Below, in pieces: positions 22,191 to 28,382 of a DNA stretch of 64,000 nucleotides. Source of the DNA: Falsiroseomonas oleicola. GTDB lineage: Bacteria > Pseudomonadota > Alphaproteobacteria > Acetobacterales > Acetobacteraceae. The notes under the pieces were generated by a model. That model worked only from the letters and a program-made list of their open reading frames with translations. It was not told the origin of the DNA and ran no database searches. Made by a program: the position numbers and the translations under genes. The DNA lies in NCBI RefSeq assembly GCF_019029495.1, contig NZ_JAERQM010000010.1, positions 1 through 64,000 on the forward strand, written 5' to 3'. How positions within the stretch are numbered: the first letter of the stretch is position 1; each line of letters opens with the position of its first letter.

Positions 22191-22259
22191 GAGGCGGCAC
22201 CCGCCCCGCCCTTCGCGGTCAGCCTGAGGCGGCGCCCGCCGCCGCCTTTCGCGGGTCAG
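22191..22259. repeat. Imperfect direct repeat of about 34 bp at the nhaA/kinase convergence
   Basis: The first copy, 22191-22222, starts GAGGCGGCACCCGCC and ends CTTCGCGGTCAG. The second copy, 22226-22259, starts GAGGCGGCGCCCGCC and ends TTTCGCGGGTCAG. The second copy overlaps the stop codon of the large kinase gene. It could be a local duplication or a pair of termination hairpins. Confidence 0.6.
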
Positions 22260-25200
22260 GCGCGGCGCGCGGCGCCCTCCGCCACCACCTGCTGCCCGGC
22301 CACATCCTCCAAAGCCTGTTCCAGGGTTTCCACGCGGATTGGCTTTTCCACATGGCCGTCCATGCCGGCCTGCTGGCAGGCCTCGATATCCTCCCGGAAG
22401 GCGCCGGCCGTCACGGCCAGGATCGGCACCATCCCGACCCGGCCAGGCAGGGCGCGGATGCGGCGCGTCGCTTCCAGCCCATCCATGCCGGGCATCTGCA
22501 CATCCATCAGCACGGCGTCATAGCTGCCGCCGCTGCGCGCCACCGCTGCCACCGCCGCGGCGCCATCCGCCACCAGATCCACCCGATGACCCACCGATTC
22601 CAGCGCCGCCCGCAGCAGCAGCCGGTTGGCCGCGACATCGTCCGCGGCCAGGATCCGCAGCGGCCGGCGTGCGGTGCCATGCGGCCGCCGCGGATATCCC
22701 GCCTCGTCCAGGACCTCCGGATTGGCCGGCGCGGTCGGCACCAGCTCGGGCAGCACGAGCGGTGGCGGCACGCGGCCGCTCGGGGCCGGGGGCAGGGCGC
22801 CTTCCGCCTGTGCCGCGGCTGGCGCGGGCAGTTCGAACCAGAACAGGCTGCCGCGCCCGCCCGGCCCCGGCTCATATTCGATCTGCCCGCCCAGCAGTGC
22901 GGCGAAGCGGGCCGAGACGGCAAGCCCCAGTCCCGACCCGGCCGCGCCGCTGCCATCCGGATCGTAGCGCACGAAATCCTGGAACAGCCGGCCATTCAGC
23001 AGGGGCGAGACGCCCGGCCCGGTATCGCTGACATCGAAGCGCAGCCGGCCCTCCAGCGGGCGGAAGACCCGCAGCGTGACGCCGCCCGCCTCGGTGAACT
23101 TCACGGCATTGCCGAGCAGGTTCAGCAGGATCTGCCGCACCCGCGCCCGGTCCATCAGCACCGCGCGCGGCACGTCGGCCGCGACCTCGATACGCAGCGT
23201 CAGGCCCTTCTCGTCGGCCGAGGGGCGCAGCAGCTCGACGCAGGACCGCGCCAGCGCCGCGGCATCCGAGGGCTCAAGCCGAGGGGCCTCGGCCCGGCCG
23301 GCCTCGATGGTGCTGATCTCCAGCAGCCGGCCGACCACGCCGGCCAGATGCTCCCCGGCGTCGGAGATGGTGCGCACCTGCTCGCGGTGGTCCGGCCCCA
23401 GGCTGCGGTCGCGCATCATGAGTTGCGCCCAGCCGAGGATGCCGTTCAACGGCGTGCGCAGCTCGTGGCTGGCGGCCGAAAGGAAGCGCGACTTCACGGC
23501 GCTCGCCGCCCGCGCGGTGTCCAGTGCCGAGGCAAGACGCGCCGCCATCACGTCCAGCCGGCTGGCCAGCGCCGCCAGTTCCGGCGTCGCCACCCGCATA
23601 TCCAGGCCGACCCGCGCGGAAAGGTCGCCATCGGCCAGCCGGTCCACGGTATGTCCCAGCCGGCGGATCGGCCGCAGCACCAGGAATTCCCCCATCGCCA
23701 GCACCAGCCCCACCAGCACCAGGCCGCCGATGCCCATCAGCAGGTAGGACAGCAGCCGGCGCTGTTGCACGGGGGCCAGCAGCACCGCCTCATCCACGCC
23801 GACAATCACCCGCGCGCCGCTGAGGCCGAGTGGCGCATAGCTGAACAGGCCCTCCACACCCGGGCGGATCGGCGCGCGCATCTGGCCGGGATTCGAATTG
23901 GCCAGCGCCGCGCGCGCCACCGGATGGTCGCTGACATCGCTGCCGATGCCCCAGCGCGCACGTTCCGTCGCATCCGCATCCGGCATATGCAGCCCGACCA
24001 GCCGCCCGGTCCCATCGATCAGGCCGATCCGGAAGGACGTCGGCGTGCTGGCCGTGAGGCGCCGCATCAGCCATGCGACGTCGAGGCCTGCGGACATCAC
24101 CCCGGTCAGCCCACCCTCGGCATCCTGGATCGGCCGGCCCAGATACAGCATGGGTTGCCCGTCGCCCGACAGCGGGCGGGTCAGGCCCGAGAGCACGTCG
24201 GTGCGGTCTCGCAGCGCCTGCCGGAAAGCCGGGCTGTTGGCCAGGTTGACCGGCGGCGTGCCGCGGCTGGTGCAGGCCGTCCAGCCATCGGGTCGCACCG
24301 TCGCCAGCGAATAAAGCCAGGCCGCGCCGCCGGTGACCTCCCGCAGCACATCGGTGCAGGCTGGCGCGGCCGCGCTGTCGCGCAGGCTGTCCAGCACCGC
24401 CGGAACGCGGGAGAGGGCACCGAGCAGCGCCTGCGCCTGCTCGACCAGCGTATCCATCTCCCGCGCGCCGCGTTGCGCCACCTCGGCGGCCTGGGCCTCG
24501 GCGGTGGCGATGCGGTCGCGCGCCTCGGTCTCCAGCAGCCAGGTGGCGAAGGTCAGCATCGGCAGCAGCGCCAGCAAAGCGAGACCCGCCCAGCGCAGCC
24601 GCACCTTGCGCACCCAGTTCGCGCGGCGTCCGGCCGCGCGTGAGCCGCTGCGGCCCGGGGTGGGGGGAATGGCGGGCCGCGGCGGCAGGATCCAGGCCGA
24701 AGACACCTGCGGCACGGCCTCTGGCACCGGCGGCACGGGGTGCGGCCGGCCGATAAGATAGCCCTGGATCAGGTCGCAGCCCTCGGCGCGCAGGTAGTCG
24801 AGCTGCGCCTGGGTCTCGACGCCTTCCGCGCAGGCCTTGATGCCGAGGCCGCGGCACAGCTGCAGCACCGCACGCACCACGTTGCGCGCCTTGTCGCTGC
24901 TGTCCATGTCGCGGATGAAGGAGCGGTCGAGCTTCACCTTGTCGAGCGGCAGGGTGTGCAGATAGCCGAGCGAGGAATAGCCGGTGCCGAAATCGTCGAG
25001 CGCGACGCGCACGCCGAGCACGTGCAACTCCTCGATCGTCACCGCCGCCGCCGCCTCATCCTTGATGAGGGTGCCTTCGGTCACCTCCAACTCCAGCCGG
25101 TCCGGCGACAGGCCGGAATCGCGCAGCATCGCGGCGACCAGGCCCGCCAGCCCACCGAGATGGAAGCGGGAGGCGGAGACGTTCAGCGCCACCTTGAGCT

Positions 25201-26569
25201 TGTGCGGCCAGGCGGCGGCCTGGCGGCAGCCCTCCCGCAGCACCCATTCATCCAGCATCCCACCCAGGCCGCAGGCCTCGGCGATGGGCACGAAGACGGC
25301 CGGGGAGACCGGGCCGTGGCCCGGGCGGTCCCAGCGCAGCAGCGCCTCGCAGCTCACGATCCGGCCGGTCTTCGCATCCGCAACCGGCTGCCACTCGAAG
25401 CGGAAGGCGCCATGGGCGAGGGCGCTGCGCAGGTCGCGTTCCAGCGCCTGGCGGCCGGCGAGCTGCCCCTCCATCGCCGGGTCGAAGCGCATCTGCTGGC
25501 CGCGGCCCTGGTTCTTCGCCGCATAGAGCGCATTGTCGGCCCGCCGCAGCAGCGCATCCGCGTCCAGCCCATCGGCCGGTGCCAGCGCATAGCCGACCGA
25601 GGTGCGGATCGGCACCGGCTGGCCTTCATATTCGAACGGCGCGCTCAGCGCCTCGATCAGCCGCACCGCCAGCGCATCGGCCTCTGCCGCCGTGGTGGGG
25701 CCGGACAGGATCACGGCGAATTCATCGCCGCCGAGGCGCGCCACCGTATCGGCCTGCCGCACCGAGGCGGTCAGCCGTCGTGCCGCTTCCCGCAGCAGGG
25801 CATCGCCGCCGGCATGGCCGAGCAGGTCGTTCACCGCCTTGAAGCGGTCGAGGTCCAGGCAGAACACCGCGAAGCTGTGCGCCTCCGGCCCCCTGGCGCG
25901 GCCGATCGCCTCCTCCAGCCGCTGTTCGAACAAAGGGCGGTTGCCGAGGCCGGTCAGCGGGTCGCGCAGCGCCGCCGACTGCGCCGATTCGAGGCTGCTG
26001 CGCAGTTCGATCGCCGCCGCCACGCCCTGGGCGATATCGGCCAGGGCGCGGGAGGCGGCCTCCGGCATCTGCCGTGGCAGGTTGTCCAGCACACAGAGCG
26101 TGCCGAGCGCATGGCCGGCGCGGTCGATGATCGGCGCGCCGGCATAGAAGCGGACATGCGGTGGGCCGATCACCAGTGGATTGTTCGCGAAACGCGGATC
26201 CTGCGCCGCATCCTCCACCACCATCACCCGCTCGGGCTGGAGGATGGCATGGGCGCAGAAGGAGCTGCGGCCTGGGATTTCCCGCAGCTCGACCCCAATC
26301 GCGGCCTTGAACCACTGCCGGTCCGCATCGATCAGGGAAACCATTGCCATCGGCGTGCCGGCGAGATGCGCCGCGAGGCGGGCAAAGGCGTCGAATCGGG
26401 CATCCTGCGCGGTGTCGAGGATCCCGGCCGCGTGCAGCGCCTTCAGGCGTTCGGTCTCGTTCGCGGGCAGTGCGGCCGGAGCCAAGGCGATCCCTCGCTT
26501 CTCTTCAAAGTGGCGAAAATCCAGCACAGACAACTCTAGGTAGCATGAAACTGTAGATTTCTCGTGCAT
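22256..26569 (-). CDS. Fusion of GAF-GGDEF-EAL module with membrane hybrid histidine kinase
   Basis: One uninterrupted 1437-residue frame. GAF about 40-190. GGDEF about 200-355, with intact GGDEF (280-284) and inhibitory-site RQAD (271-274). EAL about 375-610, with EALLRW, NVSASRF, EVTEGTL, DDFGTG, KLDRSF, AEGVE and QGYLIGRP, so both cyclase and phosphodiesterase sites look competent. A Pro-rich linker (612-650) leads to TM1 (about 660-678), an extracytoplasmic Cache-like domain (680-930), TM2 (about 940-962), HAMP, HisKA (His1035 in [10 protein letters not shown]), HATPase (N box [22 protein letters not shown]) and a receiver (Asp1356, Lys1409). c-di-GMP turnover and phosphorelay are thus joined in one chain. 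ATG 26569 lacks a clear ribosome site; a start nearer residue 15-34 is possible. Confidence 0.85.
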
Positions 26570-26663: not shown

Positions 26664-28382
26664 CTAGCTGGCCGGCACCAGCAGATGGATGGTGCTGCCG
26701 CGCCCCGCGGTGCTCTGCGCCGTCAAGGCTCCTCCGGCGCGACGCAGGAAGGCGGCGACCATCGCGAGGCCAAGGCCGGTGCCGCGTCCCACGGGCTTGG
26801 TCGTGAAGAACGGCTCTCCCAGCCGCGCCAGCACCTCCGGCGGCATGCCATGGCCCGAATCGCTCACGCTGATGCGCAGATAGGCCCCCGGCGGCAGATC
26901 CGGCGCGTCGCGCGGGGTGGGGGGGGCCGAGAGGCGGTGCGCGGTGATCCGCACTTCACCACCCTGTGGCATGGCATCCCGCGCATTGGCCGCGAGGTTG
27001 ATCAGCGCCGTCTCCAGCTCCGCCCGGTCCAGCCCCGGCGCGCTGCGCAGGCCGGGCGGGACCTCGCAGCGCACCCGGATGCCGGCACCCAGGGTCGCGT
27101 TCAGCAGCAGGGCAAGCTCGCGCAGCGAGGCGCTGACATCGATCGGCTGGGCGGTTGTCAGGGCCACCGGGTCGATGCGGCGCGTGGTGTCCAGCAGCCG
27201 GCGCGACAAGGCGGTGGCACGTTCCGCATGGCGCGCGAGGTGCCCGGCCACCTGGCGCACCCGCTCCTGATCCTCCGCATGGCGGTCCAGCAGACGGGCG
27301 GCGGCGACGACCGATTGGGTGATGTTGCCGAAATCATGCGCCAGCCCGCCGGCCAGCAGCCCCAGCGTCGCCTGGCGTTCGGCCCCGCGTGCCCGGGCCT
27401 CGGCCAGGCTGCGGCTGCGCATGGCGCGTTCGGCCTGCCAGATCGCCGCCAGCAGCAGCGCGATGCCGAGGCCCGCCCCCACCAGCGGCCCCAGCATGCG
27501 GCGCGCCCATTCCCGCAGAAGCGCCTGTTCCGACAGCCCATAGGCGATGCCGATATCGTGCCGCAGCAGCCGCCGGAAGGCGGTGAGCCGCGCCACGCCA
27601 TCGACGGGTGAGGGGCCGCGCAGTGTCGCCACATGGCCCCGTCGCAGCGCCCGCAGCATGTCCCCGGCCCGGCGCGGCAGGGCGGCGCCCTCCGGACTTC
27701 CCGGCGCCGGCACCGCCGCCAGCACCGCGCCGTCCAGGCGGAACAGGGTCACGGCATCCTGCGGGGTTTCCAGGATGCTGCGATAGAAGGACTGGAAATT
27801 GGCGGGCCAGAGCGCCGCCAGTATCGCGCCGCCATCGCTCATCCCATCCGCCCGCGCGCGCGGGCGGACCAGCGGAAAGACCAGCGTGCCGGAATCCGCA
27901 TCCCGCACCACCTGTCCGATGAAGGGGGCGTCGCGGATGGGGGAGCCGGCCGGCAGGGCCGCGACATAGTCCTGCCCCGACACGTCCTGCGCGGGCGCGT
28001 CCAGTGTTCGGGCCGAGGACATCACCTGAAGTCCGCCCGGGTCGATCAGCGCCAGGCCGCCGGAATTCTGGTTCACCGCATCCAGGGCGCGCAGGAAATC
28101 GAACAGCGAGCGGTCCCCCGCCACAGCACCCCAGTCCTGGCCGAGCATGCGCTGCTCGATGGCCGCGATGGTGAGCTCCTGCGCCTCGAAGGCGCGAAGG
28201 GCGTGTTCGTGCAGCATGTCCGCCACGCGCTGCACCCGCCCCCGCGCCGCCTGTTCCGCGGCGTGGTAGGTGCCGAAGCCGGTGGCCGCCAGCGCCGCCA
28301 GCGGCAGCAGGACCGCGAGCGCGCGCAGCAGCCTCAGCCCGCCGGCCCGGGCGGCCGGCGGGATGACGGGCTTGCCCCTCAC
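26664..28382 (-). CDS. Membrane sensor histidine kinase with Cache-like sensor
   Basis: A 572-residue kinase with TM1 (about 18-38), a periplasmic Cache-like region (about 40-290, with [12 protein letters not shown]), and TM2 (about 298-316). The phospho-acceptor is His349 in [14 protein letters not shown], an HWE/NtrB-like HDFxN box. The ATPase domain has the N box [19 protein letters not shown] and GTGLGLAMV. No receiver is fused. It lies directly upstream of the 1437-residue fusion kinase on the same strand (94 bp gap), whose receiver could be its partner. No separate response regulator is adjacent. Confidence 0.85.

Follow-up and report, generated by a model that had tools for sequence, protein, structure and literature searches.

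A cyclic diguanylate enzyme module and a hybrid histidine kinase joined in one chain in Falsiroseomonas oleicola and four related species

Falsiroseomonas oleicola carries, in the 64,000 nucleotides that we analysed (the window: positions 1 to 64,000 of contig NZ_JAERQM010000010.1, assembly GCF_019029495.1), a gene in which a GAF-GGDEF-EAL module for the second messenger cyclic diguanylate (c-di-GMP) is followed by a hybrid histidine kinase. As judged by comparing reading frames between assemblies, 22256-26569 encodes a genuine single polypeptide, and five related species have retained the fusion. We read the protein as a dimeric hybrid kinase that may tether a c-di-GMP enzyme at the membrane, where this enzyme would act locally, and give this reading a probability of roughly 0.53. 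An earlier note on this DNA had described a single uninterrupted frame, and we find the same: the frame is open over 1437 codons on the minus strand, with all the named domains in order. The features of the gene are as follows (aa, amino acids; TM, transmembrane helix).

22256-26569, minus strand: fusion gene, GAF-GGDEF-EAL-linker-TM-dCache-TM-HAMP-HisKA-HATPase_c-REC; open frame of 1437 codons, with the start in doubt and TTG at 26485 the probable one
26009-26401, minus strand: GAF (aa 57-187); Pfam PF01590, 58.4 bits
25499-25972, minus strand: GGDEF (aa 200-357); Pfam PF00990, 155.3 bits
25718-25759, minus strand: RxxD inhibitory site (I-site), then GGDEF motif (aa 271-284); pattern present in five fusions
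24743-25438, minus strand: EAL (aa 378-609); Pfam PF00563, 241.3 bits
24590-24742, minus strand: linker, Pro-rich and then basic (aa 610-660); from the alignment and the substitution ratio of aa 613-655
24533-24589, minus strand: TM1 (aa 661-679); hydropathy, helix in the predicted model
23801-24505, minus strand: extracytoplasmic dCache sensor (aa 689-923); dCache_1 31.4 bits, below cut-off; fold match to 3lif, KinD, and DctB
23699-23755, minus strand: TM2 (aa 939-957); hydropathy
23534-23680, minus strand: HAMP (aa 964-1012); Pfam PF00672, 30.2 bits
23297-23494, minus strand: HisKA (aa 1026-1091), presumed phospho-acceptor H1035; Pfam, SHELRTPLN
22820-23152, minus strand: HATPase_c (aa 1140-1250); Pfam, N, G1, and G2 boxes
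22310-22654, minus strand: REC (aa 1306-1420), presumed phospho-acceptor D1356; Pfam, solved relatives

GAF, GGDEF, EAL, HAMP, HisKA, HATPase_c, and REC all score above the curated Pfam cut-offs in this protein; of the 25 top-ranked NCBIfam matches (142 in all), the GGDEF domain model alone reaches its cut-off. The catalytic motifs had been called intact, and every one for which we scanned is indeed present. The RxxD I-site (R271) stands five residues ahead of the GGDEF motif, and the pattern R271xxD-x5-GGDEF is kept in the four relatives that share the fusion. The catalytic residue set of EAL domains is E, N, E, DD, K, E, and Q. Here the scan found EAL at 408, DDFGTG at 525, K546, E582, and Q602, with all the catalytic patterns in place (408, 462, 492, 525, 545, 581, and 602); in G222, a fusion from another genus, the LNVS pattern is unmatched and reads VNVS, with the asparagine retained. 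The kinase shows SHELRTPLN at 1034, the N-box at 1150, and the G1 and G2 boxes at 1182 and 1211, and REC shows LMDV at 1354, VTA at 1385, and EKPI at 1407. By Pfam, HisKA, HATPase_c, and a C-terminal REC, the domain set of a hybrid histidine kinase, occur together in this protein and in its four relatives. Two hydrophobic helices (aa 661-679 and 939-957) flank the sensor in the hydropathy profile, and the 15 residues before TM1 hold six Arg or Lys, against two in the 15 after it, which fits a cytoplasmic N terminus. From its motifs, the GGDEF-EAL half is predicted to have both cyclase and phosphodiesterase activity.

Full-length matches are present in 4 of the 15 genomes of the genus, namely our own, G001, G002, and G007, at 75 to 76% identity. 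The frames of the three relatives are uninterrupted over 1452, 1426, and 1411 residues, and the TGA counted in the G007 match sits ahead of its GTG start. In another genus, one of three genomes (G222) has an uninterrupted fusion with the same order of Pfam domains, 1392 residues long from its first start codon. These frames bear on a weak point raised earlier, namely that an assembly or sequencing artefact had hidden a stop codon or a frameshift in the stretch from EAL to TM1. In DNA of 72% GC a frame can stay open by chance over about 50 codons, but five different assemblies from two genera with an uninterrupted fusion rule out a slip or missed stop in the linker, so that an artefact is refuted at the sequence level and its probability is negligible. 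It might also be that the long frame is translated and the kinase is made alone as well, by an internal start or by cleavage of the linker. An ATG at aa 671 is common to four members of the genus, and an ATG at 668 and a GTG at 656 are each common to three. These codons, however, fall within TM1 or at its edge, and Met and Val are to be expected there; G222 is without a start codon between aa 598 and 673, and no ribosome-binding sequence was noticed before our own ATG on reading the codons, for which no dedicated scan was made. We consider separate production of the kinase very improbable.

The earlier figure of 1437 residues holds for the open codons but not with certainty for the protein. 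In the alignment with the three relatives of the genus, the first invariant columns appear only at A32. A TTG at 26485 (aa 29) has AGGG six bases upstream and aligns with the start codon GTG in the orthologue from G007; an earlier start is hardly possible there because only three further open codons lie upstream (1414 versus 1411). The ATG start of 22256-26569 is doubtful, and the TTG at 26485, which fits the relatives better, is the likely start of a protein of about 1409 residues.

The fusion had been thought rare, and it is rare in the genomes that we sampled. A query across the junction (aa 560-1110), with the best three or four candidates scored per genome, was spanned, among the matches listed by E-value, in 3 of 299 genomes of the family (our own, G007, and G222, in a sample without G001 and G002), in 1 of 385 genomes of the class, and in 1 of 398 genomes of the phylum, the last two being our own only. 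A scan of genome contigs with two REC-motif patterns, which is weak at finding fusions, gave no frame of at least 300 residues joining EAL or GGDEF to a kinase in 80 loci among the matches listed; in three of them GGDEF is joined to REC alone (L053, L058, and L118), with EAL as well in L053 and L058. Among the best 5000 plasmid records by score, no single place covered 80% of the query, and in the eight plasmid places, out of 100 rows listed, where EAL or GGDEF-EAL lies near a kinase (H3, H10, H42, H57, H60, H61, H62, and H63), these are all separate genes or frames. Frames of at least 200 residues in 268 loci include 95 that match EAL and 180 that match the kinase, and the only ones that match both are copies of the five fusions; these loci were picked by similarity and are no census, and independent fusions with unrelated sensors would escape such a sample.

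Both halves of the protein are under purifying selection, whereas the linker and the sensor are loosely constrained, as far as substitution ratios tell. We compared nonsynonymous with synonymous rates (dN/dS, with dS by a simple Nei-Gojobori count) between our protein and its four relatives, and for the pair G002-G001. Against the three relatives of the genus, dN/dS is 0.21 to 0.23 for GAF, 0.16 to 0.19 for GGDEF, 0.12 to 0.17 for EAL, 0.14 to 0.17 for HisKA plus HATPase, 0.22 to 0.27 for REC, and 0.18 to 0.36 for HAMP; it is 0.66 to 0.83 for TM1-Cache-TM2 (23699-24589), 0.86 to 1.02 for the linker between EAL and TM1 (aa 613-655), and 0.77 to 1.22 for the linker between HATPase and REC. The pair G002-G001 agrees (EAL 0.22, sensor 0.66, linker 0.75). 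Against G222 the values are higher (GGDEF 0.37, EAL 0.50, kinase 0.51, REC 0.33, sensor 0.90), and synonymous differences come close to saturation in some regions. The low ratios in the enzyme and kinase domains suggest that both halves are selected to work. The sensor appears to change fast under a fixed output, as if it were fitted to different ligands. As the linker from EAL to TM1 is rich in Pro and varies much between relatives, a rigid link from an extracytoplasmic signal to c-di-GMP is not to be expected.

The sensor itself misses the Pfam cut-off of dCache_1 (45 bits) in all five fusions, with 31.4, 37.1, 25.4, 43.8, and 31.9 bits, and a sequence search of the PDB with it gave nothing better than E 0.24 (KinD). 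From a four-row alignment, aa 640-1015 were modelled with a mean predicted local distance difference test score (pLDDT) of 81.9. Foldseek places two integrative chemoreceptor models first and then dCache sensors of histidine kinases; the dCache matches are 3lif (E 2.4e-12, TM-score by target 0.77), KinD (4jgo), and DctB (3e4o). We accept the sensor as a real dCache domain because the model matches solved dCache sensors, and as modelled it is a two-lobed Cache fold between two TM helices. The model opens with a single helix that starts at aa 642 and continues through TM1, the first residues being of low confidence, and the Pro-rich stretch lies outside it. A model of the N-terminal half made without an alignment was useless (pLDDT 39.4) and was not used.

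How the two halves came together can be approached through their separate relatives. Among the loci examined, a profile of the sensor found 23 relatives outside the fusions, and 22 of these resemble stand-alone kinases in that their sensor starts 13 to 64 residues into the frame; the one that differs, L101, is a weak partial match. Among these relatives, four stand-alone kinases of one genus lack REC (G330, G074, G158, and G308; frames of 632 to 656 aa), and two others have it (G208 and G279; 770 aa). These TM-dCache-TM-HAMP-HisKA-HATPase kinases share the kinase half of the fusion, at 26 to 35% identity in the sensor and 49 to 54% in the kinase, and in G330, the one stand-alone kinase scanned, dCache_1 reaches 46.3 bits, above the cut-off. 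Unlike the fusion, they have no GGDEF-EAL in the frame or within 15 to 19 kb around. An unfused operon was sought beside all six and rejected, as no frame in these 15 to 19 kb matched the query GGDEF or EAL at E 1e-6. Elsewhere in the same genomes, the closest GGDEF-EAL relative is 52% identical and matches only from residue 183 or 194; relatives that match over the full length (from residue 24-36) are 36 to 38% identical. The N-terminal module also has relatives without a kinase half, such as a stand-alone GAF-GGDEF-EAL protein of 607 aa (G019, locus L013; 48% identical) and 4rnh, the solved GGDEF-EAL part of a "Motility regulator", which aa 199-612 match at E 6.9e-100.

Trees were made for the C-terminal half (27 rows) and the N-terminal half (14 rows), after rows with less than 85% coverage, identical rows, and 14 loci taken as duplicate or partial had been dropped; the N-terminal tree leaves out the GGDEF-EAL relatives fetched later from the genomes with stand-alone kinases. 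The N-terminal tree unites the five fusions (81/87), as do 84% of its 200 bootstrap trees. In the C-terminal tree, the four kinases without REC group with G222 (100/98), nested inside the fusions, and the fusions are held together in 0 of 200 bootstrap trees. The simplest reading would be one fusion, followed by loss of both ends in the genus of the kinases without REC; two fusions of related genes, or an exchange of the kinase half, could also have given these trees. Two neighbourhoods may be mentioned here. In L164 (2539-13063), the stand-alone kinase of G330 lies in a kinase-rich spot; the motif DHRAKNALAVVQ recurs in three long frames around it, which we take to be kinases of the HWE/HisKA_2 sort. 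In L267 (2000-5726), on a plasmid of Sphingomonas parapaucimobilis, the end of an EAL gene shares 14 bases with the next gene downstream, which encodes an ATP-binding (kinase) protein, and a response regulator follows; this is the sort of neighbourhood that could give rise to an EAL-kinase fusion.

The stand-alone kinases and the linker also bear on whether the halves need each other. They might be enzymes that work independently and exchange no signal, with the single chain serving only to express them together or to place them at the membrane. The linker is Pro-rich with dN/dS near 1, and one genus has a kinase relative that lacks both the c-di-GMP half and REC, as would be expected from such independence. 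On the other side, the fusion is kept in two genera with both halves constrained, and we regard this explanation as unlikely.

Specificity among the many c-di-GMP enzymes of one cell is an open question, for which local action by tethering is a leading idea. In our preferred reading, a flexible Pro-rich linker has joined a GAF-GGDEF-EAL enzyme ahead of TM1 of an ordinary TM-dCache-TM-HAMP hybrid histidine kinase. The kinase would dimerise in the membrane and, by way of dCache, TM2, and HAMP, respond to a small extracytoplasmic ligand; phosphate would pass from H1035 to D1356 of its own REC and on to a histidine phosphotransfer (HPt) protein elsewhere. The kinase dimer would hold two GAF-GGDEF-EAL modules together at the membrane, the cytoplasmic GAF would set the balance of c-di-GMP synthesis and breakdown, and c-di-GMP made or removed there would act locally, on the kinase itself or on gathered partners. 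The sequence itself shows the fusion, the intact motifs, the two membrane helices, and selection acting on either half, whereas the enzyme activity, the coupling through the dimer, and the local action are what we infer.

The route of the phosphate depends on the type of the receiver. Among solved structures, the six that match REC best are all sensor-kinase receivers, and CheY comes next. The second best is 6qrj, which we take to be the hybrid kinase ShkA, a chain that to our knowledge has no GGDEF or EAL. In the passages of the source concerned, receivers of hybrid kinases are classed as a relay type, and the receiver of CckA does not change its shape on modification, whereas ShkA-like receivers resemble output-type receivers (PMC9981736). 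The matches to sensor-kinase receivers and the behaviour of CckA favour phosphate leaving to HPt over control in cis, and the genome does have seven HPt matches, most in frames of 338 to 1453 residues and one in a 147-residue frame. Control in cis would make the protein a permuted one-chain two-component system, in which the phosphorylated C-terminal REC acts on the N-terminal GGDEF-EAL as in a REC-GGDEF-EAL regulator. The chain does contain the components of such a c-di-GMP pair, genes for a kinase and an EAL response regulator do occur side by side, for example with a 20-base overlap in L268, and the second-best match, 6qrj, would be of the receiver type described as output-like. Against it stand the six best receiver matches, all from sensor kinases, the unchanging shape of the CckA receiver, and a distance of about 950 residues between REC and GGDEF. 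We think it possible but rather unlikely, and the same holds for a self-contained circuit, itself a tentative idea, in which the ligand sets the kinase and the c-di-GMP of the N-terminal half feeds back locally on the phosphorelay, or phosphorylated REC acts on the c-di-GMP enzyme. If true, such a circuit would convert two signalling currencies inside one membrane protein without a diffusing partner.

Several points weigh against the local tether that we favour. Despite its intact motifs, the GGDEF-EAL half could be mainly a breaker or a sensor of c-di-GMP. The linker is neither conserved nor likely to be rigid, and signalling between the halves may therefore not exist. The nesting of stand-alone kinases within the fusions in the C-terminal tree suggests either that a tether, once acquired, can disappear again or that it arose on two occasions. 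The second-best match of REC, 6qrj, and the output-like character of ShkA-like receivers make a relay type less certain. Finally, no HPt protein, among the seven matches either, and no response regulator was identified as a partner, and the neighbours of the gene vary.

The modules are known and so is this kind of fusion; it is the completeness and the order that are unusual. SgmT of Myxococcus xanthus (GAF-HK-REC-GGDEF, HK being the histidine kinase) likewise unites GAF, kinase, REC, and GGDEF domains in the single chain of a hybrid histidine kinase, and its authors know of no earlier histidine kinase that acts as a receptor for c-di-GMP (PMC3509222). In the passages of that paper, four domains are given, with no EAL or Cache listed, and the GGDEF domain, which binds c-di-GMP, is degenerate and C-terminal after REC, whereas in our fusion it is N-terminal and intact. 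GSU3350 of Geobacter sulfurreducens, a "monster multidomain" HK-GGDEF protein, also combines a histidine kinase with GGDEF, and EAL is unmentioned in the passage concerned (PMC1183210). EAL proteins with HisKA, HATPase, Hpt, or HAMP, as passages of a survey describe them, occur in Caulobacterales and Rhizobiales and thus share with the fusion the EAL and histidine kinase domains and the class Alphaproteobacteria, but they are placed in the EAL group and not in the GGDEF_EAL group (PMC9756655). ShkA of Caulobacter is a hybrid kinase tied to c-di-GMP as well (PMC7010744). In ShkA, c-di-GMP binds a pseudo-receiver. In the parts of three further sources, the kinase and the c-di-GMP regulator are described as separate proteins (PMC8846402, PMC9239204, and PMC5932348). 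In the literature searched, mostly passages, no description of the exact arrangement was noticed. The earlier suggestion of rarity is upheld for the arrangement in our sample, but the wider class is not new, as histidine kinases fused to GGDEF or EAL have already been described. Evolution has here welded an enzyme with two active sites to a membrane phosphorelay, with both halves constrained in five species, and the fusion thereby offers a ready-made object for studying whether signals carried by c-di-GMP and by phosphate interconvert within one molecule.

One further feature of the window concerns the gene next to the fusion.

26664-28382, minus strand: adjacent histidine kinase (dCache_1_like, HATPase_c), no conserved partner of the fusion; Pfam, co-occurrence

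This kinase had been proposed as a second input to the fusion, and its distribution does not support the proposal. At this locus, to which the comparison is confined, an orthologue lies beside the GT2 gene in 7 of the 15 genomes of the genus. It occurs together with the fusion in our own genome, G001, and G007, and without it, beside the same GT2 gene, in G012, G003, G013, and G005; G002 has the fusion without the kinase beside it. Neither is present in G006, G009, G008, and G004, where G009 has a 39% relative beyond MsrP, and the contigs of G014 and G010 stop short of the place where the kinase would be judged. This split occurrence indicates that the kinase and the fusion are no unit. HisKA has no Pfam match in 26664-28382, where the H-box reads GLAHDFGN, and the best NCBIfam matches, all below cut-off, are PRK13557 and CckA. 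The order in the window is NhaA, fusion, kinase 26664-28382, GT2/GtrA, ArnT-like, and MsrP-like, the last two labels being our own reading, and GT2 is present in 14 of the 15 genomes, all but G011.

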